Source: Eutreptiella sp. 'Long Island Sound 2002'
Lineage: Eukaryota > Euglenozoa > Euglenophyceae > Eutreptiales > Eutreptiaceae
DNA: 64,000 bases
Direction of reading: 5' to 3'
NCBI GenBank assembly: GCA_964036045.1
Contig: OZ038378.1
Coordinates: forward strand, 165,826,549-165,890,548
Shown here: piece after piece, positions 5,969-35,531 of the stretch
How the letters are laid out: every line of letters begins with the position of its first letter
Numbering within the stretch: the stretch's first letter is position 1
The notes under the pieces: model-generated
Told to the model about the DNA's origin: nothing
Database searches by the model: none
The model's input: the letters and a program-made list of their open reading frames with translations, nothing else
Made by a program: the position numbers and the translations under genes

Positions 5969-6284
5969 AAACATAAACACCTAGTGCAACCCCCCCACCC
6001 CCCACCCCATCGCCACTAGACTTAGGTTCCTGCACGTTCGTTTCCTGCTAGCATCACAATTCAACACCCACCCAAACAATCACTTGTATGCGCCACCCAG
6101 CACCACCCATCTCCCACCCACCAAATCGCCCGTGCGTCCCACCCTACAGCGGGTATCACGCTTTTGGGTTTTTGTGGGAGCATCCCTCGATGCTTTGACA
6201 GACGAGGGGGGCAAACCAAAGGAAGCAACACGATCTATTTGAGATCAGCGATAGGGCATTCTGGTTGGAATTTGGGGGCCAATA
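5969..6284. other. Non-coding flank of PLE copy 1
   Basis: This is C- and A-rich sequence with several C runs and repeated CCACCCA-type words directly after the element tail. I see no credible coding frame or RNA gene here. Confidence 0.4.
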
Positions 6285-14174: not shown

Positions 14175-14982
14175 AAAGGGACGCACCACGTCGTCAAGCG
14201 CCCGGACCAAGCCGGGAGAAGGGGGCCAGCAAGGGGCCCTACGCACCTCCACCCAACACGGGACACCACCGTCAACCCAACAACAACTCGCTCCTATGTT
14301 GAGGTGGTCTGGGGAGTCGCGCAACGAAGTGGGCGGCCAGCGACGGTAAGAGGCCCACCCCACGTCACCCGCTACATCCTACTCCCCCGTGCACCCACGC
14401 ATCCCCCACAACCCCCGTCCGCGCAGCAAAGGCATGAAGGAGAGGGTAGGGGGTTTGTGTTGCGCTCGCCAAAGGATGGACTGAGCGCAGGAACTTGGAG
14501 GAGAAAGGTTGTTATGTGCCCCCGTCGGGGAAACGACCCCGCAAGTGGCCATCCCAGGGCCCACCAGCCGCCGTTGGGGAGAGGTACCTCACCGCCGGCT
14601 TGGGATGGCCGCTTGGACGCACCTGGCCAACGGCGAAGGCATTTGCCTTCCTCTGCGTGGACTCGACGCAGAGAAGTGAAACAGGGTAAGTCCGGGGGCT
14701 CCGTTGGCACAACCGACCAAGGGAAAGGGAAGGGAAGGAGTGTGGTGAGGCCGATGGGCACGGTGGCCTACAGAGGGAAAGGACAAGGGAAGGGAAAGGG
14801 GAGGGGAGAGGGAAGGTTAGGGCAAGGAGGAAGAGGAAGGTCAAAGGGTGGTGAGAAGCTGATGGGCACCACCGCCTATGGAGGGAAAGGGTCCAAGGGA
14901 AGGGCAGCGAATGGCGATCGGCCAGTAGGCGCCGCCAGCTGCAGACGTGATCATCACACCATGGCGTCATGCCAAAACCCCC
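14175..14982 (+). repeat. Left pseudo-LTR of PLE copy 2
   Basis: It corresponds to the last ~810 bp of the monomer (22880-23692) and ends at CCAAAACCCCC, joined directly to the monomer head. It contains a GTAAGA word (14345) and a GGGTAAGT word (14685), both resembling splice donors. An open frame runs through it into the polyprotein. Confidence 0.85.
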
Positions 14983-15503
14983 ACATACCACGCCTGACGT
15001 GGAGTGCCCCCACACGGGGGCTGTATGGCGCGAAAGGCGCTCTACGTGCAGAAGAAGAGGCACGACAACAACCCCGTTGGTCACAAAGCCATGGAGCGGA
15101 AGCGTCGGAGCAGTGGAGAGAAGTGAGGTGTGGAAAAGGACAGGGCACGAGATGGAGCAAGGGTGGAAAGGGAACATGGCTGCCAGAAGAAGGATTGAAG
15201 GTGACCAACTATTGGGGTGCTCTATATAGGAGGACGGCCCAAAAAGGAAAAGGCAAGGGAACCCTCGGAAGGGGAGGAACGGTTGACCCAGGTTGGGTGA
15301 ATGATGAGGAGGGCGGAGGAGTTCGCTTGCAGAGCCAAACACCGGAATTGGAAAGGAGAAAAGGGATAGGGAAGGGGAAGGGAGGAAAAGGCAAAGGGAA
15401 GGGAGGAAAAGGCAAAGGGAAGGGGAGACAACACGTGGAACACACAGAAGCAAGGAGTGGAAGAGGAATCCGGCTGAGGATCCAGCATCAGCATCACCAA
15501 GGA

Positions 15504-18500
15504 ATGGAACGCACCGAGGAAAGGAGAAGTAGGGGAATGGAAAGGAGGATGCACTATCCATGGTACAAAGAGAAGGTACCACTACAACGAACAACAGTGG
15601 AAGGAGAGGTGAGATGGACATGGCAGCAGCATTTCGAGGATTGCCGCAGAGTATGGCAAGAAGGTCCCAAAACACAAAAGTTGCGTCGATTGTGGCAATT
15701 AATAAAGGAAGAACAATGGAAATGGAAGACAAGTGGACAAGAACATCGGATCCCAAGATGGAAAGAGGAAGGAGTGGCGGAAGCATACATGATGTACCAC
15801 AAGCCGACAGGCAAAGCGTACGCGGGAGTAGCGTACAATGGACACCAAGCACGGTTAAAGAAGAGATGGAGCAACCGTTGGGGGGATGAAGACTTGGTAA
15901 GTAGGGTGATGAGAACAAGTGAATCAATGGCGGATTGGATAGTATGGCCTGTGGAGAGGTTTCCCGGACAACGAAGAGGGCACATGGTGTTTTGGAGGAG
16001 GTCAAGCATGAGGGAGGGGTTTTGGGCCACACACTTGGAAAGTTGGTGGCCAAAAGGGTTCAATGAGGGAACGACAGGAGGGGAGCACAGGGAAGGGCCA
16101 AGAAGGGATTGGGCACACAGAAGGTACACATTCCAGAGGGCGCACAGGGAAGGTTTGGAAGAAAGGTGGGGGGAGACGAGGAAAAGCCTCAAGAGAACGT
16201 TGGAAAAGATTCACAACAGGGAGACCACAGTGGCGGAGGTGGTCAAAAAGATGTTGGTGCAGGAAGCAAAGAAGTTCTTGCAAGTGATATATGGAGATGG
16301 AGTCACCGGACAAGACGTACAACAACTCGAGAGAGCATTGAGGACCAAGATAAACACCCAAAAGGAGGAAAAGAGAAAGCCCATGGGTGACTACATCAAG
16401 CTCTTGATCACGCACAAGGCTTGGGGTAAAGTGAGAATCAGGGATGTCCTCAGAGACCCTGAAGTAGTCCATAGGCACCCGGAGCCTGAGGTCGCAGAAA
16501 CCATGTGGGTGTGTGAGAAGAATGTCCCGCCAATTTCCACGTGGTTGTTGAACTACACGGACATCGACAAGGAAGAAGGATTGACAGAGGAGGAAAAGGG
16601 TCTTTGTGAAATGGGATGAGCAATTTGGGCATCTCAAGACAGAAGAACAACCATGGGTGACATCGTGCAACTGTTTCAAGCATGTGCCGTATCCAAGGAA
16701 GGAGGAAGTATGGAGGGGCCATGTGGTCGTGACAGAGATGGCGGGCTTCAATAGTCCAATAATGGAAGACGTGGAGAAAAAAGGATACAAATTCAAGCAG
16801 CAAGAGCCAGAATGGAAGGTGCTCCACAACTTGGAAGAGGGGTTAACGGAGTACATCGAGTACAAAGTCCGAAGTGGAGCAGGGCAAAGAGAGGACTACG
16901 AAGGCTGGAAAGACTTGATCAAGAAAAAAGTGATGTGGCAAGTGGACAAGGAGGTGCACACGTTGCCACAAGGGACGGAAGGGATGCAAAAAGTGAAGGA
17001 CATAAAGAAAGATTTTGCATTCTTGAAGGAGGATAGGGGTCCGCACAACTGGGTTGGCGTATGTAAGCGACTATACAAGCACCGGAGGGACATATACCTC
17101 CAAAGTGATGGGTTTGAGGTCGCGCCGGAAAGTGAGGAGGCCATCCTACAACGCCACGAAGACTACCACGCGGAGAGGCTCCTCGCAGTCAACAGAAGGT
17201 TGCCGTACATATATGGAATATGGAAGGCCCAGAAAGAAAACATACGATGGATTAGTGGAGCAAGGAAACAAACCGAAGAAGAGAAAGACAAGCCGGAAGC
17301 AAGCATAGCAGGAGTCGGAGAGGTCTTGGTGCAAGCATTAACGCAAGTATGCAGAAGCTTGAAACGCAAGGATGTGGAATGGAGGAAGAAAGGGAACCCG
17401 AAGAGGGTGTGGTGGATAGATAGTGTGGAGGAGTTCATGCAGCCGGTCCGATTTGAGGAGGAATTGATAGCGCAATGTAAAGCTTCGGCGGAAGTGGGAG
17501 ATTTCGTGGCGATGTACCCAAGCATGGATCAAGACTACGTCTCCACAAACGTGTTGGAGGCAATCGAGGAGGCTTGGGACTGGGAAGAACAAACTGCAAA
17601 GGAGGACAAGGATGGGGAAGAGGAGGAAGAGCTACGGGTCGGAAAAGATGGTTGGTGGCTGGGACGAAAGGGGGAGGAACCCCAAGCTGACAGCTGGAGC
17701 AAGAGAGAAGTGAAGGAGATGGTGCAGTGGGTACTAAACAACGGATATGTCAAGCAAGGGGGTGTGGTGTACAAGCAAAAGAAAGGTTTCGGAATGGGAC
17801 TGAAATGTGCCGTCTTCTTGGCGAACTTGGCGTGTTATGGGACGGAGAAGAGGTTCGCGGAAGAAGAAGGAAGGAGGCCGGAGCAAGTGGAACACAACTA
17901 TCGCTTTGTGGATGACATGTTTTCCTTGACCGGCGTCGTACCTGGGGAGGAAGCATACAAACTCAAAAGGACGGTCCGAAGAGCCGCTGATGGAGGCCAC
18001 CTTGTCTTCTTGGGGGCTGACTTGTGGTGGAGAGAGGATGAGAAAGGGCGCATCAAGTTTGAAACCGGAGTGCATTGGAGAGAGAAGGACTATCCCATAA
18101 AAATAAGGCGATATCCAGTGAGGGATAGCATGATCTTGGACGCCCAAAGGTTGGGAGTATTGACAGGGCAATACATCAGAGCATTGAGGTTGTGCTCAGT
18201 TTTGCGATTATTCAAGGAGGCGATCCAAACCATCACCAAAACGGCCACACAGCGAGGCTATGGGACACACGAGCAAAAGAAACAATGGGGCAAGTTCTTG
18301 CGAGTGTGGTGGGGTGGACAAGACATCACCATGGGGGAGATGCACGTGTGGTTTGGACGGATGCAACGGTGGGTAAGGAAGGAGATCTCAAAAGAAGAGA
18401 GGAGAAAGAAGAGATGTTGGTACGGGTGGAGGTGTCGGAGAAAGAGCTGCCCGTTTGAGCACGTACCACCACCACAGAAAGTGTGGACACCGCCGGAAGG

Positions 18501-21500
18501 CGGGCTGGAACCCCAAAGGAGGGAAGCCAAAAATCCGCACCCACAAGGGGTGAGAACAACTGAGATCGTCGGAGAGGAAGAGGAGATCAAGAACTGTGGT
18601 GTGTGGCGGGAGACGGTGGTGGTTGTGGACTTGAGGGAACCACCGTTGGTGGCGCCAACGCAAAGCGACAACCGCAAAGTTGGGTGCGCCGAGACCACGG
18701 AGGCTGCAAGCACCAACAAAAGCCTGACAAATGATGTTGAGAGACAACAAAAGGAAGAACAAGCGAAGCAGCAGGAGAGGGAGAGCCAAGACGACAAAGG
18801 AACAAAAGAAGTGGAAGACGGTGACACCGACAGTGACGTATCAATCTTGACATGGCTGCAAGGCTTGAAGACAAGGGGCGAAGGAGGGCAAATGGAGGGA
18901 CACAAGGACTTGCGGCCGGAGGTGGTGGACGATGAGGCGACCGTGGAGCAACAAAGGCAAGAGAGGAAGAGCCACACCGAAGACCATGGAGGGCCTCGTC
19001 CATCACCACAAGTGGGGCTAGAGGTGGGGGAGAAGGAGGAGAAGGAAGAAGACCACAAGCAAAAGGAGAAGAGCGAAATCCAAAGCCACAAGGAACAATA
19101 TCCACCGCAGCGGCAAGAGGATGAGCAGCAAGGTGAAGAAAGCGGAGGACATGGAGAAGATAGTGACACCAACAGTGACATATCAATCTTGAGATGGTTG
19201 CAAGGGCTGAGGAAAGAGGAAGCGGGAGGCCAAAGCCAGGAGAACCCAGAGTTAGACGTGGTGGAAGAAGAAGAGACAAAGAAACAACCAAGGCAGGAGG
19301 TGAGAAGAAATGCCCCTGGCCAGGAAGAGCCAGAACCATCTCGAGAAGTGGCAGTGGATGGGGTGGAGAAGGGGGTGTTGGACGAACAACCAGGTCCAAA
19401 AGCGACAAAGAACAAGGACCGCAGCAAGGTACAACACCCAACAGGAGTGGGAAACCACGGGTTGAAGGAAGCCGAAGAGAGGGGGCCGACAGAAGAGAAG
19501 GTGACCTCGGAGGAGGGGAAATCAAGAAGAACAAAGCCACAACCAAGAAAGGGTGAATGGCAAGTGGAGCTCCCCAAAGACATATTGGAGACATGGAACC
19601 AAGCAGTCCGGGAAGCGGCAAGCCAAGGGAAAGAGACCATGGGATTGTTGTGGGGGACAAGGACCGAAAATGGGGTCAAAGTAGGGGGTCTACACATACC
19701 AAGACACGACGTACAAACAAGCCACCACTGTGCAGTGGGAGATGAGGCGCTCACAGAGGCGGTCAGTTGGGGCGCATCCTTGGGAGGAAAATTGGTTGGT
19801 TGGATACACACGCATCCAGGACATGTGCCGGTGCTATCAGCCTTGGACGTGTGCACCCTCAACACAATTGGCCAAACGCTATGGTCAATTATACCGGAAG
19901 GAGGCCCAGCAGTTGGAGTGGTGCAAAGTTGGACCTCTCCAGCGGATGAAGTGGCGTGTGCCCCACTGAAGGGGGGTCTAAAGGCCTACACAATGTCTGT
20001 CTTGGGCATGGAGGTGGCAAACAGATGTGCCGCAATCCGCCGAAAGAAACCGGGAGTGGATCACCTATATCATGAACATCTTGCTGGAGTTTGGGATGAT
20101 GATGACCCTCACCCGGTTGGGAGGGAGCAGGAGGAAGTGCCGGTGGTCCTCGTGGAGGCCGAGGATGGTGGTTGTATGGACATGGGAAACAACAGGTGGT
20201 GGACCAAATGGTTGGGAGCAGGAAGCACACCTAAGGAAAAGGAGAACACCAAGCCCGACAACAATGAGGAGAGTGATAGCAGCACGAGCAGCAACGGGAC
20301 AGCGAGCACGGTTGGACCCGAAGCTTGGTCGCAAAAGCGTGGTCCCAAGCACGCATGTGGGCTATGCTGCAGACCGTTGAGGGCCAAGGAGGGAGCAGTG
20401 AGGTGCAGCCAGGGGCACTGGATGCACTTGAAGTGTGCTGGGGTCACTGTCTCCCAGGCGAAGAAGGTGTTTCGCAGCAACAGGGTGTTCCAGTGTAGGT
20501 GCAGAAAGGCAAGGCCAGCCAAATGGTTGCGGGAGGAAAGAGAGAGGCACAAGCAGAGAAGGAGAGAACAACGCAGCAAAGCGAGGAATGCAGGGGTGGC
20601 GCTGGAGGAACAACCCCCCAAGCCACAAGCACGGGCCGAACCACAGCAAAGTGACTCCGAGAGACCGGAAGTGGTTGGAGTGGATGGCCATCGCATTGTT
20701 CTCGGGGGAAGAGTAGCACTAACAGGCATGAAGAAAAAGATGGAATTGGAGGGGAAGACAGGTGAGGTTGAAAGCATCATCGAGGAACAAGGAAAAGTAA
20801 GACTCCGAATGGACTGTGGCAGAAGGGTTTTGGTGTCATTGGATAGGGTCAGGGTGCAAGAGGTGGAGCACATGGGAGGCGCCGAGGACTCAAAAGCTGC
20901 CCAACCACAACAGCACGGGGAAGAAACAAAAGGACGCGGGGTGGCGGGAGACAATGAACCGCACGGAAGAAAGGAGGAAAGGAGTGAAGAAGGAGAGATG
21001 GGAGGGCAGGAAGAAACATTTGAACTATGGAATGGGGTGAGGCTAGTAGGGATGAGACAACCGGAGTTGGAGGGCCACAAGGGGGTGTTGGAGGAGATCT
21101 ACAAGGACAAAGTGCAAGTGTTGTTAGTGGGAGGGATGCGCCGAGTAAAAGTGGACAAGAAGGTGGTCCCGGAGGTAGTTGAGCCCGTTGAGGTGCTGCC
21201 CCCGGGTTTTGAAGGATGGAGCTTTCTTGAACAGATTGGAGTGGGTAGTGCACCCACCATGGATGAAGTGAAGGCCGCATACAAAAAGTGGGTGTTACGG
21301 TTACATCCGGACAAGAACATGAACAACATTGCCAAAGCCACCCACCTGTTCAAAAGGTTGACCTCCGGCTACGAGGGATGGAAAAGTGCGCCCGGGGTGA
21401 CACCGCCAAGGCCGGCGGAGGAACCACCCAACTACCAGTTCAACCCCACATACTTTCGATCCAATTTCTGCAACAGCACAAGTTCGGCGGGGCAAACAGC

Positions 21501-22023
21501 CCCGGAGGAAGCGCCACCAAGTGCCAAAAACCCAGAAACGGAGGGGGATGGAGAGGGTTTTTGGTCTTTCTTGTGGGGAAGCAAAAGGCCCGGTCGTTCC
21601 GAACATGCGAGTGGAATGGGGGCTAGCCACGGTGAGGGTACACCGAAGGGCGCACCGCCACCGGGGTCGGGACCGCAACGGACCCGCCGCCTCTTGTTCC
21701 ATGAGAAGTTCCGGTGGCACACGCACCACGTCCGTGCCATCCAAGCGGACCGGATCCTCGCTGAGAAAAGGAGGAGAGGGTGGTTCTCCGACTACCCCGA
21801 GGCAGGAAGCAACATGTACTTATTGGCACCAGACCAGGTGTACAAAGTGCGAGTGCTAGCCTCAACGGTATGGGTGCCGGAGGTGAGACGTTGGGAGCCG
21901 GAGGTGTTCATCATCGGGGAGGGCATCAACTTCACAGTGGAGGACACAACCAGGTTGATGCAAAACTTGCACAGGGCAAACGTGATTGCCGAGCAAGTAG
22001 GCATCCGGCTGTACAAGGAGTAG
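15504..22023 (+). pseudogene. PLE polyprotein, copy 2, single frameshift after the GIY-YIG domain
   Basis: The frame is open from 13794, through the left pseudo-LTR, to 16619. The first ATG inside the monomer is at 15504. This part holds the GIY-YIG nuclease (AYMMY near 15783, YAG near 15820). At 16593 an A run has four As where copy 3 has six, which shifts the frame. The rest (16606-22023, 1805 codons) is open. It contains RT (DFVAMYPSM near 17500, FVDD near 17905), CCCH finger, two SIM-like motifs, JAMM (HTH near 19807), PHD-like finger (20350-20505), two SH3/KOW-like modules and J-domain (HPD near 21305). It lacks one Lys codon in the second SH3/KOW-like module. Apart from the 2-bp change it is close to copy 3. 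Confidence 0.88.
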
Positions 22024-22500
22024 AAGATGGAAGCGAAGTGAGAAGCGGACAAGCCCCACCCGCGGGTGACAAGAGGTCGTGGAAGCGCACGGTCCCACAG
22101 TTCCGACGGCGTCAAGGTGACGGGGTGCAAATTGATCAGCGCAGTGCCGAGCACAAAGGCGCGACCCGGAACGCACCATGGCATGGCCTAGGCCTTGAAG
22201 CAAGAGGGACTGAGACCGGGCGCCAAGCGACCCAGGAACCCAAGGGACGGGCAACCCGGCGCCGGGAGGAGAAAGAAGAACAAGGAAAGCAAAAAGCCTG
22301 ATGGAGAGGAGAGTCTCACACCATCAACATGGCTCTGCTGGGGAGGAGAAGATCCTCCAGCCACCGAGACTCACACTGGGGAGCCGCGGCCCCCAGTGAT
22401 ACAGCAACAAGGCACAACGATGTGGTCTGAGGTACGGCCGTGGACGGGCCTCTGGACCCATGCCCAATGGAGACGGCGCCGCAGTCTCCATTGGATGCGC

Positions 22501-22610
22501 CCCGGCTACCACAACGCGCAGCGAGCTTTCTCGCCGGCGGAGTAGGGGGCAAGGCCCCGGCTACCACAACGCGCAGCGAGCTTTCTCGCCGGCGGAGTAG
22601 GGGGCAAGGC
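22501..22610. repeat. 55-bp tandem duplication private to copy 2
   Basis: A 55-bp unit starting CCCGGCTACCACAACGCGC is present twice in a row in the 3' region of copy 2 and once in copies 1, 3 and the partial copy. It arose after copy 2 separated from the others. Confidence 0.9.
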
Positions 22611-22879: not shown

Positions 22880-23692
22880 AAAGGGACGCACCACGTCGTC
22901 AAGCGCCCGGACCAAGCCGGGAGAAGGGGGCCAGCAAGGGGCCCTACGCACCTCCACCCAACACGGGACACCACCGTCAACCCAACAACAACTCGCTCCT
23001 ATGTTGAGGTGGTCCGGGGAGTCGCGCAACGAAGTGGGCGGCCAGCGACGGTAAGAGGCCCACCCCACGTCACCCGCTACATCCTACTCCCCCGTGCACC
23101 CACGCATCCCCCACAACCCCCGTCCGCGCAGCAAAGGCATGAAGGAGAGGGTAGGGGGTTTGTGTTGCGCTCGCCAAAGGATGGACTGAGCGCGGGAACT
23201 TGGAGGAGAAAGGTTGTTATGTGCCCCCGTCGGGGAAACGACCCCGCAAGTGGCCATCCCAGGGCCCACCAGCCGCCGTTGGGGAGAGGTACCTCACCGC
23301 CGGCTTGGGATGGCCGCTTGGACGCACCTGGCCAACGGCGAAGGCATTTGCCTTCCTCTGCGTGGACTCGACGCAGAGAAGTGAAACAGGGTAAGTCCGG
23401 GGGCTCCGTTGGCACAACCGACCAAGGGAAAGGGAAGGGAAGGAGTGTGGTGAGGCCGATGGGCACGGTGGCCTACAGAGGGAAAGGACAAGGGAAGGGA
23501 AAGGGGAGGGGAGAGGGAAGGTTAGGGCAAGGAGGAAGAGGAAGGTCAAAGGGTGGTGAGAAGCTGATGGGCACCACCGCCTATGGAGGGAAAGGGTCCA
23601 AGGGAAGGGCAGCGAATGGCGATCGGCCAGTAGGCGCCGCCAGCTGCAGACGTGATCATCACACCATGGCGTCATGCCAAAACCCCCCCCCC
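22880..23692 (+). repeat. Right pseudo-LTR equivalent of PLE copy 2
   Basis: Matches 14175-14982 and ends in CCAAAA plus ten Cs. The terminal C run is longer than the five Cs found at the internal tail-head junctions (14978-14982 and 26603-26607). Confidence 0.85.
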
Positions 23693-24998
23693 AACAGGCA
23701 TGAAGAAAAAGATGGAATTGGAGGGAAAGACAGGTGAGGTTGAAAGCAACATCGAGGAACAAGGAAAGGTAAGACTCCGAATGGACTGTGGCAGAAGGGT
23801 GTTGGTGTCATTGGATAGGGTCAGGGTGCAAGAGGTGGAGCACATGGGAGGCGCCGAGGACTCAAAAGCTGCCCAACAACGACAGCACGGGGAAGAAACA
23901 AAAGGACGCGGGGTGGCGGGAGACAATGAACCGCACGGAAGAAAGGAGGAAAGGAGTGAAGAAGGAGAGATGGGAGGGCAGGAAGAAACATTTGAACTAT
24001 GGAATGGGGTGAGGCTAGTAGGGATGAGACAACCGGAGTTGGAGGGCCACAAGGGGGTGTTGGAGGAGATCTACAAGGACAAAGTGCAAGTGTTGTTAGT
24101 GGGAGGGATGCGCCGAGTAAAAGTGGACAAGAAGAAGGTGGTCCCGGAGGTAGTTGAGCCCGGTGAGGTGCTGCCCCCGGGTTTTGAAGGATGGAGCTTT
24201 CTGGAACAGATTGGAGTGGGTAGGGCACCCACCATGGATGAAGTGAAGGCCGCATACAAAAAGTGGGTGTTACGGTTACATCCGGACAAGAACATGAACA
24301 ACATTGCCAAAGCCACCCACCTGTTCAAAAGGTTGACCTCCGGCTACGAGGGATGGAAAAGTGCGCCCGGGGTGACACCGCCAAGGCCGGCGGAGGAACC
24401 ACCCAACTACGAGTTCAACCCCACATACTTTCGATCCAATTTCTGCAACAGCACAAGTTCGGCGGGGCAAACAGCCCCGGAGGAAGCGCCACCAAGTGCC
24501 AAAAACCCAGAAACGGAGGGCGATGGAGAGGGTTTTTGGTCTTTCTTGTGGGGAAGCAAAAGGCCCGGTCGTTCCGAACATGCGAGTGGAATGGGGGCTA
24601 GCCACGGTGAGGGTACACCGAAGGGCGCACCGCCACCGGGGTCGGGACCGCAACGGACCCGCCGCCTCTTGTTCCATGAGAAGTTCCGGTGGCACACGCA
24701 CCACGTCCGTGCCATCCAAGCGGACCGGATCCTCGCTGAGAAAAGGAGGAGAGGGTGGTTCTCCGACTACCCCGAGGCAGGAAGCAACATGTACTTATTG
24801 GCACCAGACCAGGTGTACAAAGTGCGAGTGCTAGCCTCAACGGTATGGGTGCCGGAGGTGAGACGTTGGGAGCCGGAGGTGTTCATCATCGGGGAGGGCA
24901 TCAACTTCACAGTGGAGGACACAACCAGGTTGATGCAAAACTTGCACAGGGCAAACGTGATTGCCGAGCAAGTAGGCATCCGGCTGTACAAGGAGTAG
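23693..24998 (+). pseudogene. PLE polyprotein C-terminal fragment in the truncated copy
   Basis: It encodes the end of the first SH3/KOW-like module, the second module, the J-domain (LHPDKN) and the C-terminal domain up to the normal stop. An ATG upstream in the tail of copy 2 (23652) is in frame with it, giving a 448-codon chimaeric ORF. It lacks nuclease, RT and protease parts. Confidence 0.85.
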
Positions 24999-26607
24999 AA
25001 GATGGAAGCGAAGTGAGAAGCGGACAAGCCCCACCCGCGGGTGACAAGAGGTCGTGGAAGCGCACGGTCCCACAGTTCCGACGGCGTCAAGGTGACGGGG
25101 TGCAAATTGATCAGCGCAGTGCCGAGCACAAAGGCGCGACCCGGAACGCACCATGGCATGGCCTAGGCCTTGAAGCAAGAGGGACTGAGACCGGGCGCCA
25201 AACGACCCAGGAACCCAAGGGACGGGCAACCCGGCGCCGGGAGGAGAAAGAAGAACAAAGAAAGCAAAAAGCCTGATGGAAAGGAGAGTCTCACACCATC
25301 AACATGGCTCTGCTGGGGAGGAGAAGATCCTCCAGCCACCGAGACTCACACTGGGGAGCCGCGGCCCCCAGTGATACAGCAACAAGGCACAACGATGTGG
25401 TCTGAGGTACGGCCGTGGACGGGCCTCTGGACCCATGCCCAATGGAGACGGCGCCGCAGTCTCCATTGGATGCGCCCCGGCTACCACAACGCGCAGCGAG
25501 CTTTCTCGCCGGCGGAGTAGGGGGCAAGGCCAAACAACAGGCAGGGGGAAGGCAACCCCCGCACTTTTTTAGCCAGGGTGGTGACCAACACCAACCACAA
25601 CAAAACAATGAACTCTACACGTGCACCGAGTTCTTCTCGGGGGGTCCAATGGGGCCTCAGCGAGATGCCCGATGTGGCAACGCAAGCCCACCGGGGGCCG
25701 CGCTCTCAAGGGAGTGACCACGGCAGTAAGTCCCAGCGTGCTGGCACTGAGAAGCGAGCAGGGGAGAGACTCCTTCCCTCGCGTAGCAACTCAACCAGAA
25801 AAGGGACGCACCACGTCGTCAAGCGCCCGGACCAAGCCGGGAGAAGGGGGTCAGCAAGGGGCCCTACGCACCTCCACCCAACATGGGACACCACCGTCAA
25901 CCCAACAACAACTCGCTCCTATGTTGAGGTGGTCCGGGGAGTCGCGCAACGAAGTGGGCGGCCAGCGACGGTAAGAGGCCCACCCCACGTCACCCGCTAC
26001 ATCCTACTCCCCCGTGCACCCACGCATCCCCCACAACCCCCGTCCGCGCAGCAAAGGCATGAAGGAGAGGGTAGGGGGTTTGTGTTGCGCTCGCCAAAGG
26101 ATGGACTGAGCGCGGGAACTTGGAGGAGAAAGGTTGTTATGTGCCCCCGTCGGGGAAACGACCCCGCAAGTAGCCATCCCAGGGCCCACCAGCCGCCGTT
26201 GGGGAGAGGTACCTCACCGCCGGCTTGGGATGGCCGCTTGGACGCACCTGGCCAACGGCGAAGGCATTTGCCTTCCTCTGCGTGGACTCGACGCAGAGAA
26301 GTGAAACAGGGCAAGTCCGGGGGCTCCGTTGGCACAACCGACCAAGGGAAAGGGAAGGGAAGGAGTGTGGTGAGGCCGATGGGCACGGTGCCCTACAGAG
26401 GGAAAGGCCAAGGGAAGGGAAAGGGGAGGGGAGAGGGAAGGTTAGGGCAAGGAGGAAGAGGAAGGTCAAAGGGTGGTGAGAAGCTGATGGGCACCACCGC
26501 CTATGGAGGGAAAGGGTCCAAGGGAAGGGCAGCGAATGGCGATCGGCCAGTAGGCGCCGCCAGCTGCAGACGAGATCATCACACCATGGCGTCATGCCAA
26601 AACCCCC
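23693..26607 (+). repeat. Left pseudo-LTR of copy 3 (2.9 kb, 5'-truncated copy)
   Basis: Equivalent to 32337-35245. It begins at the first SH3/KOW-like module and includes the C-terminal coding part, the 3' region and the tail. Its length (2915 bp) differs from the 808-bp pseudo-LTR of copy 2, as expected if the left repeat is a variably truncated upstream copy and not a fixed LTR. Confidence 0.85.
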
Positions 26608-29600
26608 ACATACCACGCCTGACGTGGAGTGCCCCCACACGGGGGCTGTATGGCGCGAAAGGCGCTCTACGTGCAGAAGAAGAGGCACGACAACAACCCC
26701 GTTGGTCACAAAGCCATGGAGCGGAAGCGTCGGAGCAGTGGAGAGAAGTGAGGTGTGGAAAAGGACAGGACACGAGATGGAGCAAGGGTGGAAAGGGAAC
26801 ATGGCTGCCAGAAGAAGGATTGAAGGTGACCAACTATTGGGGTGCTCTATATAGGAGGACGGCCCAAAAAGGAAAAGGCAAGGGAACCCTCGGAAGGGGA
26901 GGAACGGTTGACCCAGGTTGGGTGAATGATGAGGAGGGCGGAGGAGTTCGCTTGCCGAGCCAAACACCGGAATTGGGAAGGAGAAAAGGGATAGGGAAGG
27001 GGAAGGGAGGAAAAGGCAAAGGGAAGGGGAGACAACACGTGGAACACACAGAAGCAAGGAGTGGAAGAGGAATCCGTCCGAGGATCCAGCATCAGCATCA
27101 CCAAGGAATGGAACGCACCGAGGAAAGGAGAAGTAGGGGAATGGAAAGGAGGATGCACTATCCATGGTACAAAGAGAAGGTACCACTACAACGAACAACA
27201 GTGGAAGGAGAGGTGAGATGGACATGGCAGCAGCATTTTGAGGATTGCCGCAGAGTATGGCAAGAAGGTCCCAAAACACAAAAGTTGCGTCGATTGTGGC
27301 AACTAATAAAGGAAGAACAATGGAAATGGAGGACAAGTGGACAAGAACATCGGATCCCAAGATGGGAAGAGGAAGGAGTGGCGGAAGCATACATGATGTA
27401 CCACAAGCCGACAGGCAAAGCGTACGCGGGAGTAGCGTACAATGGACACCAAGCACGGTTAAAGAAGAGATGGAGCAACCGTTGGGGGGATGAAGACTTG
27501 GTAAGTAGGGTGATGAGAACAAGTGAATCAATGGCGGATTGGATAGTATGGCCTGTGGAGAGGTTTCCCGGACAACGAAGAGGGCACATGGCGTTTTGGA
27601 GGAGGTCAAGCATGAGGGAGGGGTTTTGGGCCACACACTTGGAATGTTGGTGGCCAAAAGGGTTCAATGAGGGAACGACAGGAGGGGAGCACAGGGAAGG
27701 GGCCAGAAGGGATTGGGCACACAGAAGGTACACATTCCAGAGGGCGCACAGGGAAGGTTTGGAAGAAAGGTGGGGGGAGACGAGGAAAAGCCTCAAGAGA
27801 ACGTTGGAAAAGATTCACAACAAGGAGACCACAGTGGCGGAGGTGGTCAAAAAGATGTTGGTGCAGGAAGCAAAGAAGTTCTTGCAAGTGATATATGGAG
27901 ATGGAGTCACCGGACAAGACGTGCAACAACTCGAGAGAGCATTGAGGACCAAGATAAACACCCAAAAGGAGGAAAAGAGAAAGCCCATGGGTGACTACAT
28001 CAAGCTCTTGATCACGCACAAGGCTTGGGGTAAAGTGAGAATCAGGGATGTCCTCAGAGACCCTGAAGTAGTCCATAGGCACCCGGAGCCTGAGGTCGCA
28101 GAAACCATGTGGGTGTGTGAGAAGAATGTCCCGCCAATTTCCACGTGGTTGTTGAACTACACGGACATCGACAAGGAAGAAGGATTGACAGAGGAGGAAA
28201 AAAGGGTCTTTGTGAAATGGGATGAGCAATTTGGGCATCTCAAGACAGAAGAACAACCATGGGTGACATCGTGCAACTGTTTCAAGCATGTGCCGTATCC
28301 AAGGAAGGAGGAAGTATGGAGGGGCCATGTGGTCGTGACAGAGATGGCGGGCTTCAATAGTCCAATAATGGAAGACGTGGAGAAAAAAGGATACAAATTC
28401 AAGCAGCAAGAGCCAGAATGGAAGGTGCTCCACAACTTGGAAGAGGGGTTAACGGAGTACATCGAGTACAAAGTACGAAGTGGAGCAGGGCAAAGAGAGG
28501 ACTACGAAGGCTGGAAAGACTTGATCAAGAAAAAAGTGATGTGGCAAGTGGACAAGGAGGTTCACACGTTGCCACAAGGGACGGAAGGGATGCAAAAAGT
28601 GAAGGACATGAAGAAAGATTTTGCATTCTTGAAGGAGGATAGGGGTCCGCACAACTGGGTTGGCGTATGTAAGCGACTATACAAGCACCGGAGGGACATA
28701 TACCTCCAAAGTGATGGGTTTGAGGTCGCGCCGGAAAGTGAGGAGGCCATCCTACAACGCCACGAAGACTACCACGCGGAGAGGCTCCTCGCAGTCAACA
28801 GAAGGTTGCCGTACATATATGGAATATGGAAGGCCCAGAAAGAAAACATACGATGGATTAGTGGAGCAAGGAAACAAACCGAAGAAGAGAAAGACAAGCC
28901 GGAAGCAAGCATAGCAGGAGTCGGAGAGGTCTTGGTGCAAGCATTAACGCAAGTATGCAGAAGCTTGAAACGCAAGGATGTGGAATGGAGGAAGAAAGGG
29001 AACCCGAAGAGGGTGTGGTGGATAGATAGTGTGGAGGAGTTCATGCAGCCGGTCCGATTTGAGGAGGAATTGATAGCGCAATGTAAAGCTTCGGCGGAAG
29101 TGGGAGATTTCGTGGCGATGTACCCAAGCATGGATCAAGACTACGTCTCCACAAACGTGTTGGAGGCAATCAAGGAGGCTTGGGACTGGGAAGAACAAAC
29201 TGCAAAGGAGGACAAGGATGGGGAAGAGGAGGAAGAGCTACGGGTCGGAAAAGATGGTTGGTGGCTGGGACGAAAGGGGGAGGAACCCCAAGCTGACAGC
29301 TGGAGCAAGAGAGAAGTGAAGGAGATGGTGCAGTGGGTACTAAACAACGGATATGTCAAGCAAGGGGGTGTGGTGTACAGGCAAAAGAAAGGTTTCGGAA
29401 TGGGACTGAAATGTGCCGTCTTCTTGGCGAACTTGGCGTGTTATGGGACGGAGAAGAGGTTCGCGGAAGAAGAAGGAAGGAGGCCGGAGCAAGTGGAACA
29501 CAACTATCGCTTTGTGGATGACATGTTTTCCTTGACCGGCGTCGTCCCTGGGGAGGAAGCATACAAACTCAAAAGGACGGTCCGAAGAGCCGCTGATGGA

Positions 29601-32600
29601 GGCCACCTTGTCTTCTTGGGGGCTGACTTGTGGTGGAGAGAGGATGAGAAAGGGCGCATCAAGTTTGAAACCGGAGTGCATTGGAGAGAGAAGGACTATC
29701 CCATAAAAATAAGGCGATATCCAGTGAGGGATAGCATGATCTTGGACGCCCAAAGGTTGGGAGTATTGACAGGGCAATACATCAGAGCATTGAGGTTGTG
29801 CTCAGTTTTGCGATTATTCAAGGAGGCGATCCAAACCATCACCAAAACGGCCACACAGCGAGGCTATGGGACACACGAGCAAAAGAAACAATGGGGCAAG
29901 TTCTTGCGAGTGTGGTGGGGTGGACAAGACATCACCATGGGGGAGATGCACGTGTGGTTTGGACGGATGCAACGGTGGGTAAGGAAGGAGATCTCAAAAG
30001 AAGAGAGGAGAAAGAAGAGATGTTGGTACGGGTGGAGGTGTCGGAGAAAGAGCTGCCCGTTTGAGCACGTACCACCGCCACCGAAAGTGTGGACACCGCC
30101 GGAAGGCGGGCTGGAACCCCAAAGGAGGGAAGCCAAAAATCCGCACCCACAAGGGGTGAGAAACACTGAGATCGTCGGAGAGGAAGAGGAGATCAAGAAC
30201 TGTGGTGTGTGGCGGGAGACGGTGGTGGTTGTGGACTTGAGGGAACCACCGTTGGTGGCGCCAACGCAAAGCGACAACCGCAAAGTTGGGTGCGCCGAGA
30301 CCACGGAGGCTGCAAGCACCAACAAAAGCCTGACAAATGATGTTGAGAGACAACAAAAGGAAGAACAAGCGAAGCAGCAGGAGAGGGAGAGCCAAGACGA
30401 CAAAGGAACAAAAGAAGTGGAAGACGGTGACACCGACAGTGACGTATCAATCTTGACATGGCTGCAAGGCTTGAAGACAAGGGGCGAAGGAGGGCAAATG
30501 GAGGGACACAAGGACTTGCGGCCGGAGGTGGTGGACGATGAGGCGACCGTGGAGCAACAAAGGCAAGAGAGGAAGAGCCACACCGAAGACCATGGAGGGC
30601 CTCGTCCATCACCACAAGTGGGGCTAGAGGTGGGGGAGAAGGAGGAGAAGGAAGAAGACCACAAGCAAAAGGAGAAGAGCGAAATCCAAAGCCACAAGGA
30701 ACAATATCCACCGCAGCGGCAAGAGGATGAGCAGCAAGGTGAAGAAAGCGGAGGACATGGAGAAGATAGTGACACCAACAGTGACATATCAATCTTGAGA
30801 TGGTTGCAAGGGCTGAGGAAAGAGGAAGCGGGAGGCCAAAGCCAGGAGAACCCAGAGTTAGACGTGGTGGAAGAAGAAGAGACAAAGAAACAACCAAGGC
30901 AGGAGGAGAGAAGAAATGCCCCTGGCCAGGAAGAGCCAGAACCATCTCGAGAAGTGGCAGTGGATGGGGTGGAGAAGGGGGTGTTGGACGAACAACCAGG
31001 TCCAAAAGCGACAAAGAACAAGGACCGCAGCAAGGTACAACACCCAACAGGAGTGGGAAACCACGGGTTGAAGGAAGCCGAAGAGAGGGGGCCGATAGAA
31101 GAGAAGGTGACCTCGGAGGAGGGGAAATCAAGACGAACAAAGCCACAACCAAGAAAGGGTGAATGGCAAGTGGAGCTCCCCAAGGACATATTGGAGACAT
31201 GGAACCAAGCAGTCCGGGAAGCGGCAAGCCAAGGGAAAGAGACCATGGGATTGTTGTGGGGGACAAGGACCGAAAATGGGGTCAAAGTAGGGGGTCTACA
31301 CATACCAAGACACGACGTACAAACAAGCCACCACTGTGCAGTGGGAGATGAGGCGCTCACAGAGGCGGTCAGTTGGGGCGCATCCTTGGGAGGAAAATTG
31401 GTTGGTTGGATACACACGCATCCAGGACATGTGCCGGTGCTATCAGCCTTGGACGTGTGCACCCTCAACACAATTGGCCAAACGCTATGGTCAATTATAC
31501 CGGAAGGAGGCCCAGCAGTTGGAGTGGTGCAAAGTTGGACCTCTCCAGCGGATGAAGTGGCGTGTGCCCCACTGAAGGGGGGTCTAAAGGCCTACACAAT
31601 GTCTGTCTTGGGCATGGAGGTGGCAAACAGATGTGCCGCAATCCGCCGAAAGAAACCGGGAGTGGATCACCTATATCATGAACATCTTGCTGGAGTTTGG
31701 GATGATGATGACCCTCACCCGGTTGGGAGGGAGCAGGAGGAAGTGCCGGTGGTCCTCGTGGAGGCCGAGGATGGTGGTTGTATGGACATGGGAAACAACA
31801 GGTGGTGGAGCAAATGGTTGGGAGCAGGAAGCACACCTAAGGAAAAGGAGAACACCAAGCCCGACAACAATGAGGAGAGTGATAGCAGCACGAGCAGCAA
31901 CGGGACAGCGAGCACGGTTGGACCCGAAGCTTGGTCGCAAAAGCGTGGTCCCAAGCACGCATGTGGGCTATGCTGCAAACCGTTGAGGGCCAAGGAGGGA
32001 GCAGTGAGGTGCAGCCAGGGGCACTGGATGCACTTGAAGTGTGCTGGGGTCACTGTCTCCCAGGCGAAGAAGGTGTTTCGCAGCAACAGGGTGTTCCAGT
32101 GTAGGTGCAGAAAGGCAAGGCCAGCCAAATGGTTGCGGGAGGAAAGAGAGAGGCACAAGCAGAGGAGGAGAGAACAACGCAGCAAAGCGAGGAATGCAGG
32201 GGTGGCGCTGGAGGAACAACCCCCCAAGCCACAAGCACGGGCCGAACCACAGCAAAGTGACTCCGAGAGACCGGAAGTGGTTGGAGTGGATGGCCATCGC
32301 ATTGTTCTCCGGGGAAGAGTAGCACTAACAGGCATGAAGAAAAAGATGGAATTGGAGGGAAAGACAGGTGAGGTTGAAAGCATCATCGAGGAACAAGGAA
32401 AAGTAAGACTCCGAATGGACTGTGGCAGAAGGGTGTTGGTGTCATTGGATAGGGTCAGGGTGCAAGAGGTGGAGCACATGGGAGGCGCCGAGGACTCAAA
32501 AGCTGCCCAACAACAACAGCACGGGGAAGAAACAAAAGGACGCGGGGTGGCGGGAGACAATGAACCGCACGGAAGAAAGGAGGAAAGGAGTGAAGAAGGA

Positions 32601-33632
32601 GAGATGGGAGGGCAGGAAGAAACATTTGAACTATGGAATGGGGTGAGGCTAGTAGGGATGAGACAACCGGAGTTGGAGGGCCACAAGGGGGTGTTGGAGG
32701 AGATCTACAAGGACAAAGTGCAAGTGTTGTTAGTGGGAGGGATGCGCCGAGTAAAAGTGGACAAGAAGAAGGTGGTCCCGGAGGTAGTTGAGCCCGTTGA
32801 GGTGCTGCCCCCGGGTTTTGAAGGATGGAGCTTTCTGGAACAGATTGGAGTGGGTAGTGCACCCACCATGGATGAAGTGAAGGCCGCATACAAAAAGTGG
32901 GTGTTACGGTTACATCCGGACAAGAACATGAACAACATTGCCAAAGCCACCCACCTGTTCAAAAGGTTGACCTCCGGCTACGAGGGATGGAAAAGTGCGC
33001 CCGGGGTGACACCGCCAAGGCCGGCGGAGGAACCACCCAACTACCAGTTCAACCCCACATACTTTCGATCCAATTTCTGCAACAGCACAAGTTCGGCGGG
33101 GCAAACAGCCCCGGAGGAAGCGCCACCAAGTGCCAAAAACCTAGAAACGGAGGGCGATGAAGAGGGTTTTTGGTCTTTCTTGTGGGGAAGCAAAAGGCCC
33201 GGTCGTTCCGAACATGCGAGTGGAATGGGGGCTAGCCACGGTGAGGGTACACCGAAGGGCGCACCGCCACCGGGGTCGGGACCGCAACGGACCCGCCGCC
33301 TCTTGTTCCATGAGAAGTTCCGGTGGCACACGCACCACGTCCGTGCCATCCAAGCGGACCGGATCCTCGCTGAGAAAAGGAGGAGAGGGTGGTTCTCCGA
33401 CTACCCCGAGGCAGGAAGCAACATGTACTTATTGGCACCAGACCAGGTGTACAAAGTGCGAGTGCTAGCCTCAACGGTATGGGTGCCGGAGGTGAGACGT
33501 TGGGAGCCGGAGGTGTTCATCATCGGGGAGGGCATCAACTTCACAGTGGAGGACACAACCAGGTTGATGCAAAACTTGCACAGGGCAAACGTGATTGCCG
33601 AGCAAGTAGGCATCCGGCTGTACAAGGAGTAG
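25578..33632 (+). CDS. PLE polyprotein: GIY-YIG, RT, CCCH, JAMM, PHD-like, SH3/KOW x2, J-domain
   Basis: An uninterrupted frame of 2684 codons. Residues 1-343 come from the tail of the truncated upstream copy. The first ATG inside the monomer is residue 511 (27108), giving 2174 aa. Order: RG/KG-rich basic N-terminus; GIY-YIG nuclease ~595-705 (AYMMY 604, YAG 616, Glu661, Asn697); RT ~1150-1430 (motif A Asp in DFVAMYPSM 1177, GFGMG ~1275, FVDD 1312-1315, FLGAD, QRGYG end); CCCH finger 1482-1497 (C-x5-C-x4-C-x3-H); acidic, coiled-coil-like region with VSIL 1623 and ISIL 1737; JAMM (Glu1888, HTH 1946-1948, Ser1956, Asp1959); PHD/RING-like finger 2129-2177; SH3/KOW-like ~2240-2300 and ~2349-2402; J-domain ~2412-2475 (HPD 2446-2448); novel C-terminal ~200 aa. 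RT and N-terminal GIY-YIG place it with Chlamys/Naiad-type PLEs. The downstream domains are shared by every copy that covers them, so they belong to the element. Confidence 0.88.
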   Translation: MVTNTNHNKTMNSTRAPSSSRGVQWGLSEMPDVATQAHRGPRSQGSDHGSKSQRAGTEKRAGERLLPSRSNSTRKGTHHVVKRPDQAGRRGSARGPTHLHPTWDTTVNPTTTRSYVEVVRGVAQRSGRPATVRGPPHVTRYILLPRAPTHPPQPPSAQQRHEGEGRGFVLRSPKDGLSAGTWRRKVVMCPRRGNDPASSHPRAHQPPLGRGTSPPAWDGRLDAPGQRRRHLPSSAWTRRREVKQGKSGGSVGTTDQGKGKGRSVVRPMGTVPYRGKGQGKGKGRGEGRLGQGGRGRSKGGEKLMGTTAYGGKGSKGRAANGDRPVGAASCRRDHHTMASCQNPHIPRLTWSAPTRGLYGAKGALRAEEEARQQPRWSQSHGAEASEQWREVRCGKGQDTRWSKGGKGTWLPEEGLKVTNYWGALYRRTAQKGKGKGTLGRGGTVDPGWVNDEEGGGVRLPSQTPELGRRKGIGKGKGGKGKGKGRQHVEHTEARSGRGIRPRIQHQHHQGMERTEERRSRGMERRMHYPWYKEKVPLQRTTVEGEVRWTWQQHFEDCRRVWQEGPKTQKLRRLWQLIKEEQWKWRTSGQEHRIPRWEEEGVAEAYMMYHKPTGKAYAGVAYNGHQARLKKRWSNRWGDEDLVSRVMRTSESMADWIVWPVERFPGQRRGHMAFWRRSSMREGFWATHLECWWPKGFNEGTTGGEHREGARRDWAHRRYTFQRAHREGLEERWGETRKSLKRTLEKIHNKETTVAEVVKKMLVQEAKKFLQVIYGDGVTGQDVQQLERALRTKINTQKEEKRKPMGDYIKLLITHKAWGKVRIRDVLRDPEVVHRHPEPEVAETMWVCEKNVPPISTWLLNYTDIDKEEGLTEEEKRVFVKWDEQFGHLKTEEQPWVTSCNCFKHVPYPRKEEVWRGHVVVTEMAGFNSPIMEDVEKKGYKFKQQEPEWKVLHNLEEGLTEYIEYKVRSGAGQREDYEGWKDLIKKKVMWQVDKEVHTLPQGTEGMQKVKDMKKDFAFLKEDRGPHNWVGVCKRLYKHRRDIYLQSDGFEVAPESEEAILQRHEDYHAERLLAVNRRLPYIYGIWKAQKENIRWISGARKQTEEEKDKPEASIAGVGEVLVQALTQVCRSLKRKDVEWRKKGNPKRVWWIDSVEEFMQPVRFEEELIAQCKASAEVGDFVAMYPSMDQDYVSTNVLEAIKEAWDWEEQTAKEDKDGEEEEELRVGKDGWWLGRKGEEPQADSWSKREVKEMVQWVLNNGYVKQGGVVYRQKKGFGMGLKCAVFLANLACYGTEKRFAEEEGRRPEQVEHNYRFVDDMFSLTGVVPGEEAYKLKRTVRRAADGGHLVFLGADLWWREDEKGRIKFETGVHWREKDYPIKIRRYPVRDSMILDAQRLGVLTGQYIRALRLCSVLRLFKEAIQTITKTATQRGYGTHEQKKQWGKFLRVWWGGQDITMGEMHVWFGRMQRWVRKEISKEERRKKRCWYGWRCRRKSCPFEHVPPPPKVWTPPEGGLEPQRREAKNPHPQGVRNTEIVGEEEEIKNCGVWRETVVVVDLREPPLVAPTQSDNRKVGCAETTEAASTNKSLTNDVERQQKEEQAKQQERESQDDKGTKEVEDGDTDSDVSILTWLQGLKTRGEGGQMEGHKDLRPEVVDDEATVEQQRQERKSHTEDHGGPRPSPQVGLEVGEKEEKEEDHKQKEKSEIQSHKEQYPPQRQEDEQQGEESGGHGEDSDTNSDISILRWLQGLRKEEAGGQSQENPELDVVEEEETKKQPRQEERRNAPGQEEPEPSREVAVDGVEKGVLDEQPGPKATKNKDRSKVQHPTGVGNHGLKEAEERGPIEEKVTSEEGKSRRTKPQPRKGEWQVELPKDILETWNQAVREAASQGKETMGLLWGTRTENGVKVGGLHIPRHDVQTSHHCAVGDEALTEAVSWGASLGGKLVGWIHTHPGHVPVLSALDVCTLNTIGQTLWSIIPEGGPAVGVVQSWTSPADEVACAPLKGGLKAYTMSVLGMEVANRCAAIRRKKPGVDHLYHEHLAGVWDDDDPHPVGREQEEVPVVLVEAEDGGCMDMGNNRWWSKWLGAGSTPKEKENTKPDNNEESDSSTSSNGTASTVGPEAWSQKRGPKHACGLCCKPLRAKEGAVRCSQGHWMHLKCAGVTVSQAKKVFRSNRVFQCRCRKARPAKWLREERERHKQRRREQRSKARNAGVALEEQPPKPQARAEPQQSDSERPEVVGVDGHRIVLRGRVALTGMKKKMELEGKTGEVESIIEEQGKVRLRMDCGRRVLVSLDRVRVQEVEHMGGAEDSKAAQQQQHGEETKGRGVAGDNEPHGRKEERSEEGEMGGQEETFELWNGVRLVGMRQPELEGHKGVLEEIYKDKVQVLLVGGMRRVKVDKKKVVPEVVEPVEVLPPGFEGWSFLEQIGVGSAPTMDEVKAAYKKWVLRLHPDKNMNNIAKATHLFKRLTSGYEGWKSAPGVTPPRPAEEPPNYQFNPTYFRSNFCNSTSSAGQTAPEEAPPSAKNLETEGDEEGFWSFLWGSKRPGRSEHASGMGASHGEGTPKGAPPPGSGPQRTRRLLFHEKFRWHTHHVRAIQADRILAEKRRRGWFSDYPEAGSNMYLLAPDQVYKVRVLASTVWVPEVRRWEPEVFIIGEGINFTVEDTTRLMQNLHRANVIAEQVGIRLYKE

Positions 33633-35245
33633 AAGATGGAAGCGAAGTGAGAAGCGGACAAGCCCCACCCGCGGGTGACAAGAGGTCGTGGAAGCGCACG
33701 GTCCCACAGTTCCGACGGCGTCAAGGTGACGGGGTGCAAATTGATCAGCGCAGTGCCGAGCACAAAGGCGCGACGCGGAACGCACCATGGCATGGCCTAG
33801 GCCTTGAAGCAAGAGGGACTGAGACCGGGCGCCAAACGACCCAGGAACCCAAGGGACGGGCAACCCGGCGCCGGGAGGAGAAAGAAGAACAAAGAAAGCA
33901 AAAAGCCTGATGGAAAGGAGAGTCTCACACCATCAACATGGCTCTGCTGGGGAGGAGAAGATCCTCCAGCCACCGAGACTCACACTGGGGAGCCGCGGCC
34001 CCCAGTGATACAGCAACAAGGCACAACGATGTGGTCTGAGGTACGGCCGTGGACGGGCCTCTGGACCCATGCCCAATGGAGACGGCGCCGCAGTCTCCAT
34101 TGGATGCGCCCCGGCTACCACAACGCGCAGCGAGCTTTCTCGCCGGCGGAGTAGGGGGCAAGGCCAAACAACAGGCAGGGGGAAGGCAACCCCCGCACTT
34201 TTTTAGCCAGGGTGGTGACCAACACCAACCACAACAAAACAATGAACTCTACACGTGCACCGAGTTCTTCTCGGGGGGTCCAATGGGGCCTCAGCGAGAT
34301 GCCCGATGTGGCAACGCAAGCCCACCGGGGGCCGCGCTCTCAAGGGAGTGACCACGGCAGTAAGTCCCAGCGTGCTGGCACTGAGAAGCGAGCAGGGGAG
34401 AGACTCCTTCCCTCGCGTAGCAACTCAACCAGAAAAGGGACGCACCACGTCGTCAAGCGCCCGGACCAAGCCGGGAGAAGGGGGTCAGCAAGGGGCCCTA
34501 CGCACCTCCACCCAACATGGGACACCACCGTCAACCCAACAACAACTCGCTCCTATGTTGAGGTGGTCCGGGGAGTCGCGCAACGAAGTGGGCGGCCAGC
34601 GACGGTAAGAGGCCCACCCCACGTCACCCGCTACATCCTACTCCCCCGTGCACCCACGCATCCCCCACAACCCCCGTCCGCGCAGCAAAGGCATGAAGGA
34701 GAGGGTAGGGGGTTTGTGTTGCGCTCGCCAAAGGATGGACTGAGCGCGGGAACTTGGAGGAGAAAGGTTGTTATGTGCCCCCGTCGGGGAAACGACCCCG
34801 CAAGTAGCCATCCCAGGGCCCACCAGCCGCCGTTGGGGAGAGGTACCTCACCGCCGGCTTGGGATGGCCGCTTGGACGCACCTGGCCAACGGCGAAGGCA
34901 TTTGCCTCTCTCTGCGTGGACTCGACGCAGAGAAGTGAAACAGGGCAAGTCCGGGGGCTCCGTTGGCACAACCGACCAAGGGAAAGGGAAGGGAAGGAGT
35001 GTGGTGAGGCCGATGGGCACGGTGCCCTACAGAGGGAAAGGCCAAGGGAAGGGAAAGGGGAGGGGAGAGGGAAGGTTAGGGCAAGGAGGAAGAGGAAGGT
35101 CAAAGGGTGGTGAGAAGCTGATGGGCACCACCGCCTATGGAGGGAAAGGGTCCAAGGGAAGGGCAGCGAATGGCGATCGGCCAGTAGGCGCCGCCAGCTG
35201 CAGACGAGATCATCACACCATGGCGTCATGCCAAAACCCCCCCCC
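32337..35245 (+). repeat. Right pseudo-LTR equivalent of copy 3
   Basis: Matches 23693-26607. It differs at a few sites, for example GCCTCTCTCTGC near 34905 against GCCTTCCTCTGC on the left. It ends in CCAAAA plus nine Cs at 35237-35245. Confidence 0.85.
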
Positions 35246-35490: not shown

Positions 35491-35531
35491 GGGAGAATTA
35501 TGCTTGAGAGCTTTCTTTTCTTCTGCTCCAG

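Follow-up and report, generated by a model that had tools for sequence, protein, structure and literature searches.

Can a retrotransposon protein include, as a selected part of itself, both a deubiquitinase-type protease and a J-domain? The question is raised by a stretch of 64,000 nucleotides (nt) from Eutreptiella sp. 'Long Island Sound 2002' (assembly GCA_964036045.1, contig OZ038378.1, positions 165,826,549 to 165,890,548; this whole stretch is called the window). In it, an open frame of 2684 amino acids (aa) at 25578..33632, stop-free and with a GTG start (first ATG at aa 11), had been read in an initial annotation, made from the letters alone, as the polyprotein of a Penelope-like element (PLE) that joins a GIY-YIG nuclease, a Penelope-type reverse transcriptase (RT), a CCCH finger, a JAMM protease, a PHD/RING-like finger, two SH3/KOW-like modules, and a J-domain. 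The frame, its parts, and the copies of the element in the window described below lie on the + strand. Our analysis, which draws on sequence comparison, strongly indicates that the JAMM, the finger, the two KOW/SH3-like modules, and the J-domain are part of the element's own selected protein, and the element is very probably of the PLE type with a selected JAMM cassette.

JAMM and J-domain in an intact frame

The intact frame was present as annotated, and its JAMM/MPN metalloprotease (31167..31538) and J-domain (32829..32987) were both borne out by Pfam matches over the curated cut-offs, namely Prok-JAB/JAB at aa 1864–1987 (E 6e-6 / 2.5e-5) and DnaJ at aa 2424–2469 (E 6.9e-7). The JAMM core is complete, with E1888, H1946-x-H1948, ten residues, and D1959, plus S1956. 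None of its catalytic residues was substituted among 23 copies of the element, and the HPD motif of the J-domain (aa 2446–2448) was kept in 23/23. The closest solved relatives of the J-domain were DnaJB proteins, and those of the JAMM part were AMSH-like proteases (1.5e-5), the AMSH alignment ending at aa 1962. The JAMM deubiquitinases AMSH and sst2, its best PDB matches, share the E, HxH-x10-D core with it, whereas the window JAMM is fused to an RT; AMSH has a second zinc site. Between the two domains lies a cross-brace (PHD/RING-like) finger (31962..32108), whose annotation stood as a motif seen by eye (C2129, C2132, C2145, H2149, H2152, C2155, C2175, and C2177) but gave no profile match in the window protein. 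It is followed by two KOW/SH3-like modules (32313..32465 and 32625..32792) with weak similarity to each other, the second of which has a weak Pfam KOW match (E 0.7).

Copies and coding constraint

When the RT segment was searched against the element's own genome (2.28 Gb), 73 of 435 candidates were scored places, many of them 98–100% identical, and by hand count 29/73 had frames of at least 2000 aa that were stop-free in the matched segment. The 10-kb surroundings were fetched for the 20 best-scoring of the 73 places, after the window's own copy, and because they were drawn from the best-scoring places, these copies lean young and intact. Together with three window copies, they formed a 23-copy alignment, in which the 253 pairs had a median identity of 99.3% (range 98.6–99.95%) and 11/23 copies were without a stop or frameshift over the covered part (hand count). 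The family is a young, recently active retrotransposon. A chance fusion or an assembly artefact was ruled out by the 73 scored places, the 29 long open frames, and the same domain order in the copies; the view that this is the element's own architecture was thus sustained by the order kept in genomic copies, together with the C-terminal constraint and the parallel domain sets in relatives described below. The initial annotation had counted three full or near-full copies in the window. JAMM and/or J-domain matches were indeed recovered in other window copies, at 208–2454 (JAB), 2795–4354 (DnaJ), 16606–22023 (JAB and DnaJ), and 23652–24998 (DnaJ), so the downstream domains were not absent from all other copies, an absence that had been named as a sign against this architecture. 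The only intact window copy, however, was that at 25578–33632: the 14–22 kb copy has lost 2 nt, and one stop and frameshifts break the frame of the 0–4.4 kb copy.

Constraint along the frame was assessed from variants shared by at least two of the 23 copies and classed in frame as silent (S) or replacing (N). The counts were S21 N8 for GIY-YIG plus RT (p 1.7e-7), S9 N2 for the JAMM (p 3e-4), S8 N4 for the finger and KOW modules (p 0.005), and S22 N10 for all of aa 1851–2684 (p 1.4e-6), with expected rates derived from the same variants and with copies that were the best-scoring ones. Some of the shared variants cannot count as independent, since two copies (L034 and L037) hardly differ and have one junction in common. 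Over aa 600–2684, the ratio was 0.23 in frame, against 4.97 and 1.07 in the off-frame controls, and single-copy variants gave a ratio of 0.55, as would follow from the decay of many copies once they have inserted. No constraint was seen in the linker at aa 1491–1850 (S7 N16, ratio 0.84) or in the first codons, aa 1–507 (S3 N9, ratio 1.26). Among the shared variants there is, at the sequence level, a signature of purifying selection on the JAMM, as on the GIY-YIG/RT part.

Reverse transcriptase, endonuclease-like region, and protein start

The Penelope-type RT, with a telomerase-like N-terminal extension and thumb, occupies 27945..30017 and has the motifs D1177, GFGMG at 1272, and VDD at 1313–1315, the catalytic residues being D1177, D1314, and D1315. 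Neither Pfam, for the window protein, nor a PDB profile search with the RT alignment gave an RT match, but an AlphaFold2 model of aa 585–1500 agreed with the annotation: its best match was telomerase RT, with TERT at ranks 1–10 in VIA and as the top 13 in Foldseek. Three features of PLEs were found, namely a telomerase-like RT with A/B/C motifs; in both the window and genomic copies, a tandem or partial-tandem arrangement with pseudo-long terminal repeats (pLTRs); and variable 5' truncation together with a fixed 3' end, the latter seen at three ends in the window. Upstream of the RT, a GIY-YIG-like endonuclease region (27375..27677) is marked by six signature residues (Y605, Y616, G618, R627, E681, and N697) that were invariant among the three aligned sequences, the window protein and two relatives. 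Motif and homology suggest a GIY-YIG identity, and if that assignment holds, the order of an endonuclease-like region before the RT fits Chlamys/Naiad.

Against the PLE assignment stands the absence of a Pfam GIY-YIG match in the window protein, the only one being a weak match (E 0.0052) in a segment of P0009, one of the two relatives, and a PDB profile search with the region gave no nuclease match. Hammerhead ribozymes are common in the pLTRs of PLEs, although not universal; here, none was found in the pLTR by Rfam or by a strict core pattern, searches by which diverged motifs could be missed. This negative result also bears on the proposal that the element belongs to some other TERT-like retroelement lineage of euglenozoans, which gains further room from an RT comparison made without reference PLE sequences in a tree. 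A telomerase-like RT found together with pLTRs and the GIY-YIG signature is the mark of a PLE (PMC11167929), and we regard a non-PLE lineage as highly improbable.

Behind the RT, the CCCH finger (30021..30068, aa 1482–1497) has the form C1482-x5-C1488-x4-C1493-x3-H1497 and aligned with similar fingers in three of six relatives (P0004–P0006), which supports its annotation. A pattern scan found nothing because the first spacing asked for was wider, and in P0007 and P0009 the sequence continues past the RT with no CCCH finger. An acidic unconstrained linker (30069..31127, aa 1498–1850) leads from this finger towards the JAMM. At the other end, the part of the frame covering aa 1–510 (25578..27107) shows no coding constraint and is probably a leader rather than protein, and the match to P0004 starts at window position 27141, aa 522 (C1:165853689). 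Because the first ~510 codons are without constraint, the likely start of the protein is the ATG of aa 511 at 27108 (27108..33632), and the reading of all 2684 aa as one polyprotein was not supported.

Relatives with an OTU-type domain in place of the JAMM

Three of the six relatives (RT 44–47% identical), P0004, P0005, and P0006, carry an OTU-type domain at the place of the JAMM, behind the CCCH finger. Pfam OTU matched all three cut segments at E up to 1, the best and only value shown being 4.9e-11 (P0006), and the active-site D, G, and C (DGxC) and H (HY) of OTU proteases were invariant in the three. A profile built from these segments matched 6dx3 (2.7e-8), deposited as a polymerase chain, which we take to be a viral OTU. 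Behind the OTU, a J-domain was found in P0005 (E 1.6e-8, over the cut-off) and P0006 (E 1.8e-5, just under it), and P0006 also has a PHD finger over the cut-off (E 2.7e-5). In the element's own genome, a second family on C24 and C10 is 49–51% like P0004. A 3.6-kb segment beside the C24 place (L041, C24:3421001-3424600) holds OTU-like pieces, two KOW/SH3-like modules preceded by PHD-like fingers seen by eye, and a J-domain (Pfam E 4.8e-17). The window protein and the KOW–KOW–J part of L041 are collinear (22% identity, E 9.6e-10), which upholds the two annotated modules. The relatives' domain sets and this collinearity together suggest that the downstream set is shared and that the type of deubiquitinase (DUB) differs. 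The initial annotation had proposed that the element strips ubiquitin-like tags from its RT particle and refolds it; the OTU-type domain at the same place makes the deubiquitinase half of this proposal more likely and suggests that elements of this kind have to deal with the host ubiquitin system. In a search with aa 1851–2684, no JAMM-bearing relative was returned, P0003, a public sequence 93% identical, being the sole relative; among viral contigs and prokaryote genome contigs, no relative was confirmed.

Within L041, an OTU-like C-terminal half comes first, ahead of an OTU-like N-terminal half, the fingers, the KOW-like modules, and the J-domain; this order may reflect an OTU that has been permuted or duplicated, or else an array that has been broken up.

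Several observations weigh against a selected, shared cassette. On whole proteins, the Pfam OTU match was over the cut-off for P0006 (1.4e-9), below it for P0004 (0.0047), and absent for P0005; P0004 has the OTU but no J-domain; and the other three of the six relatives, P0007, P0008, and P0009, show neither a DUB nor a J-domain, P0008 being cut within the RT, the P0007 frame ending after the RT, and the P0009 tail being of low complexity. Both P0004-like places in the genome match only to P0004 residue 1038, before its OTU. In L041, the OTU match is weak (Pfam E 0.11), there is one in-frame stop, and the OTU–J set and the neighboring RT are on opposite strands, no RT belonging to the set being seen. 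Pfam and AlphaFold had been proposed as checks on the window protein, and they succeeded for JAB, DnaJ, and the RT part, but the model of the JAMM/J part was unusable (pLDDT 38.8) and too poor for a structure search. In P0003, an internal deletion has removed the JAMM and the finger but left the J-domain, and in the window family the J-domain and C-terminus taken alone gave S5 N4 (p 0.07). These last two points would fit functionless passengers captured from host genes, as would the known capture of genes by elements (PMC6431247). By the shared variants, however, constraint on the JAMM is on a par with that on the RT, and an unrelated DUB fold in the relatives parallels it, which makes JAMM and J-domain as mere passengers very unlikely.

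Element structure and insertion sites

The full tandem unit of 8634 nt spans 25474..34107, its spacing being taken from a self-BLAST of the window and from genomic copies. The left pLTR (25474..26607, 1134 nt) is identical at 1132/1134 positions to the right pLTR (34108..35241), where the element ends as ...CATGCCAAAACCCCC running into a C tract. A second window copy (14175..22556), 5'-truncated and with its 2-nt deletion at aa 874, is followed by a pLTR at 22554–23691; a third (1..5970), cut by the window edge, has a broken frame and a right pLTR at its end; and 23693..25473 is a fragment of a further copy (KOW–J–C-terminus). The body/pLTR junction was present in 19/20 fetched copies. Variable 5' truncation was seen in genomic copies, and a fixed 3' end at the three window ends.

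The join itself varied among the 20 fetched copies (L021–L040): it fell after unit position 8692 in 11 and after 8699 in two, six continued as the window copy does, and L040 did not show it. In the window, the boundary at 22499–22611 contains a 55-bp tandem duplication. Copies were also clustered on several chromosomes (C18:13.16-13.36 Mb, C22:16.08-16.25 Mb, C25:12.48-12.59 Mb, and C4:23.4-23.6 Mb).

C runs of at least seven lay upstream of 10/14 5' junctions, compared with a frequency of 6.0% among 1411 background windows (p 5e-10, a rough value given that these windows overlap), whereas G runs were upstream of 0/14, compared with 3.6% of the background. The count leaves out six of the 20 fetched loci: L035, L037, and L038 (junction in a microsatellite, duplicate, or rearranged) and L027, L028, and L033, for which no junction had been listed. 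A further element fragment is found nearby in L036. In the window, all three 3' ends have the sequence CCAAAACCCCC and lead into C tracts. C tracts at both the junctions and the 3' ends would fit a model in which a G-rich end serves as primer on the C-rich end of the RNA.

Comparison with known elements

PLEs with an N-terminal GIY-YIG domain (Chlamys/Naiad) are reportedly established, Craig and co-workers being said to have described them in 2021. The window element resembles that clade in its GIY-YIG-like region before a telomerase-like RT and in its pLTR tandem structure with 5' truncation; it differs in adding a CCCH finger, JAMM, cross-brace finger, two KOW/SH3-like modules, and a J-domain, in its 8.6-kb unit, and in that no hammerhead was found. 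Dualen/RandI non-LTR elements carry an OTU domain, and we know of no established purpose of OTU domains in mobile elements. Helentrons also carry OTU, and the accessory functions of terminons, the giant rotifer PLEs, are likewise already known (PMC6431247 for both). Like the window family, these OTU-bearing elements have a deubiquitinase-type protease within the protein of a mobile element, but they belong to other element classes and have OTU only, whereas the window family has JAMM and a J-domain. The terminon functions differ, comprising an exonuclease, esterase, Rep, and others, in elements that are endonuclease-deficient and telomeric. Canonical PLEs (Penelope/Poseidon) have the single open reading frame (ORF), telomerase-like RT, and tandem/pLTR arrangement in common with the window element, but their GIY-YIG is C-terminal; the Poseidon element tested in PMC11167929 reportedly prefers AT-rich DNA, whereas the junctions of the window family are flanked by C tracts. 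In the open-access literature, as covered by titles and the starts of abstracts, a coverage outside which the paper defining Chlamys/Naiad falls, no description of a JAMM or J-domain in a PLE was found.

A proposed role for the DUB and J-domain

As a whole, the observations are best explained, in our view with moderate confidence, by a PLE whose exchangeable DUB and J-domain cassette would serve to protect the RT particle and to assemble it. In such a scheme, the element protein would bind its own RNA through the CCCH and KOW modules, and the GIY-YIG domain would nick a C/G tract, so that a G-rich primer end could anneal to the ...AAAACCCCC RNA end and target-primed reverse transcription could start. 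In the manner of AMSH, the JAMM would take ubiquitin that is perhaps K63-linked off the RT particle of the element itself or off host factors that would destroy the particle or flag the nick. Through its J-domain, the protein would recruit Hsp70 of the host for assembly or remodeling of the RT–RNA particle, in the way that chaperones assist other RTs. Ubiquitin is the somewhat favored substrate, while a specifically protective role is plausible but less probable.

To our knowledge, the targets of JAMM enzymes with an established function are isopeptide or ubiquitin-like tails, and no polyprotein protease is among these enzymes. This specificity weighs against the idea that the JAMM or OTU is the element's own processing protease, which would release the RT and accessory parts from the polyprotein, as viral OTU proteases do with theirs, and would have no ubiquitin role; the OTU/JAMM swap, moreover, would leave ubiquitin, and not a cleavage site, as the only obvious common substrate. 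What speaks for processing is that all domains lie in one frame, that the unconstrained linker stands exactly before the JAMM, and that a plant RNA virus OTU domain has both activities (PMC5695851), and we hold it to be unlikely. A role at chromatin seems a little less unlikely, though still improbable. There, the finger and KOW/SH3-like modules would dock on nucleosomes or at the nicked site, and the JAMM would strip K63-linked or histone ubiquitin, so that the DNA-damage response would be muted during integration, with the J-domain secondary. The AMSH-like JAMM as closest solved relative, the PHD finger of P0006, and the PHD-like fingers of L041 are consistent with this, but the window finger is without a profile match and nothing ties it to histones.

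Returning to the exchangeable cassette, the replacement of OTU by JAMM beside a J-domain and a telomerase-cousin RT argues that ubiquitin removal is the selected function. We tentatively suggest, as a reading that may well prove too broad, that in a euglenid-type PLE lineage a DUB and Hsp70-recruiting cassette is integral to retrotransposition, the OTU cysteine and JAMM zinc folds having been swapped at one position as the mark of a long conflict with host ubiquitin control. Two enzymes of unlike chemistry are thereby available for testing the ubiquitin-removal function, and whether a TERT-like RT particle has built-in chaperone recruitment becomes testable.

Other observations in the window and genome

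COX1 gave 86 matches in the same genome, with many near-identical copies or fragments on small contigs, most of them stop-free, a pattern reminiscent of the euglenid mitochondrial genome; with P0004 among the relatives of the element, it points to a probable euglenid host. The best family fit, at C42:17856-19199, has seven TGA codons, unlike many other COX1 matches; another organism or another code are candidate readings.

The window also contains a second element of ~10.2 kb as a head-to-tail pair (35491–45686 and 45685–56002) that is 98.8–99.7% alike. Its ORFs at 39170–42010 and 49384–52338 have, by eye, RT-like (YSDDG) and RNase H-like stretches, while Pfam gave no RT or RNase H match for either. 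Outside the element copies, a 0.73-kb repeat occurs at 11700–12430 and 61510–62227, the two being 95% alike.

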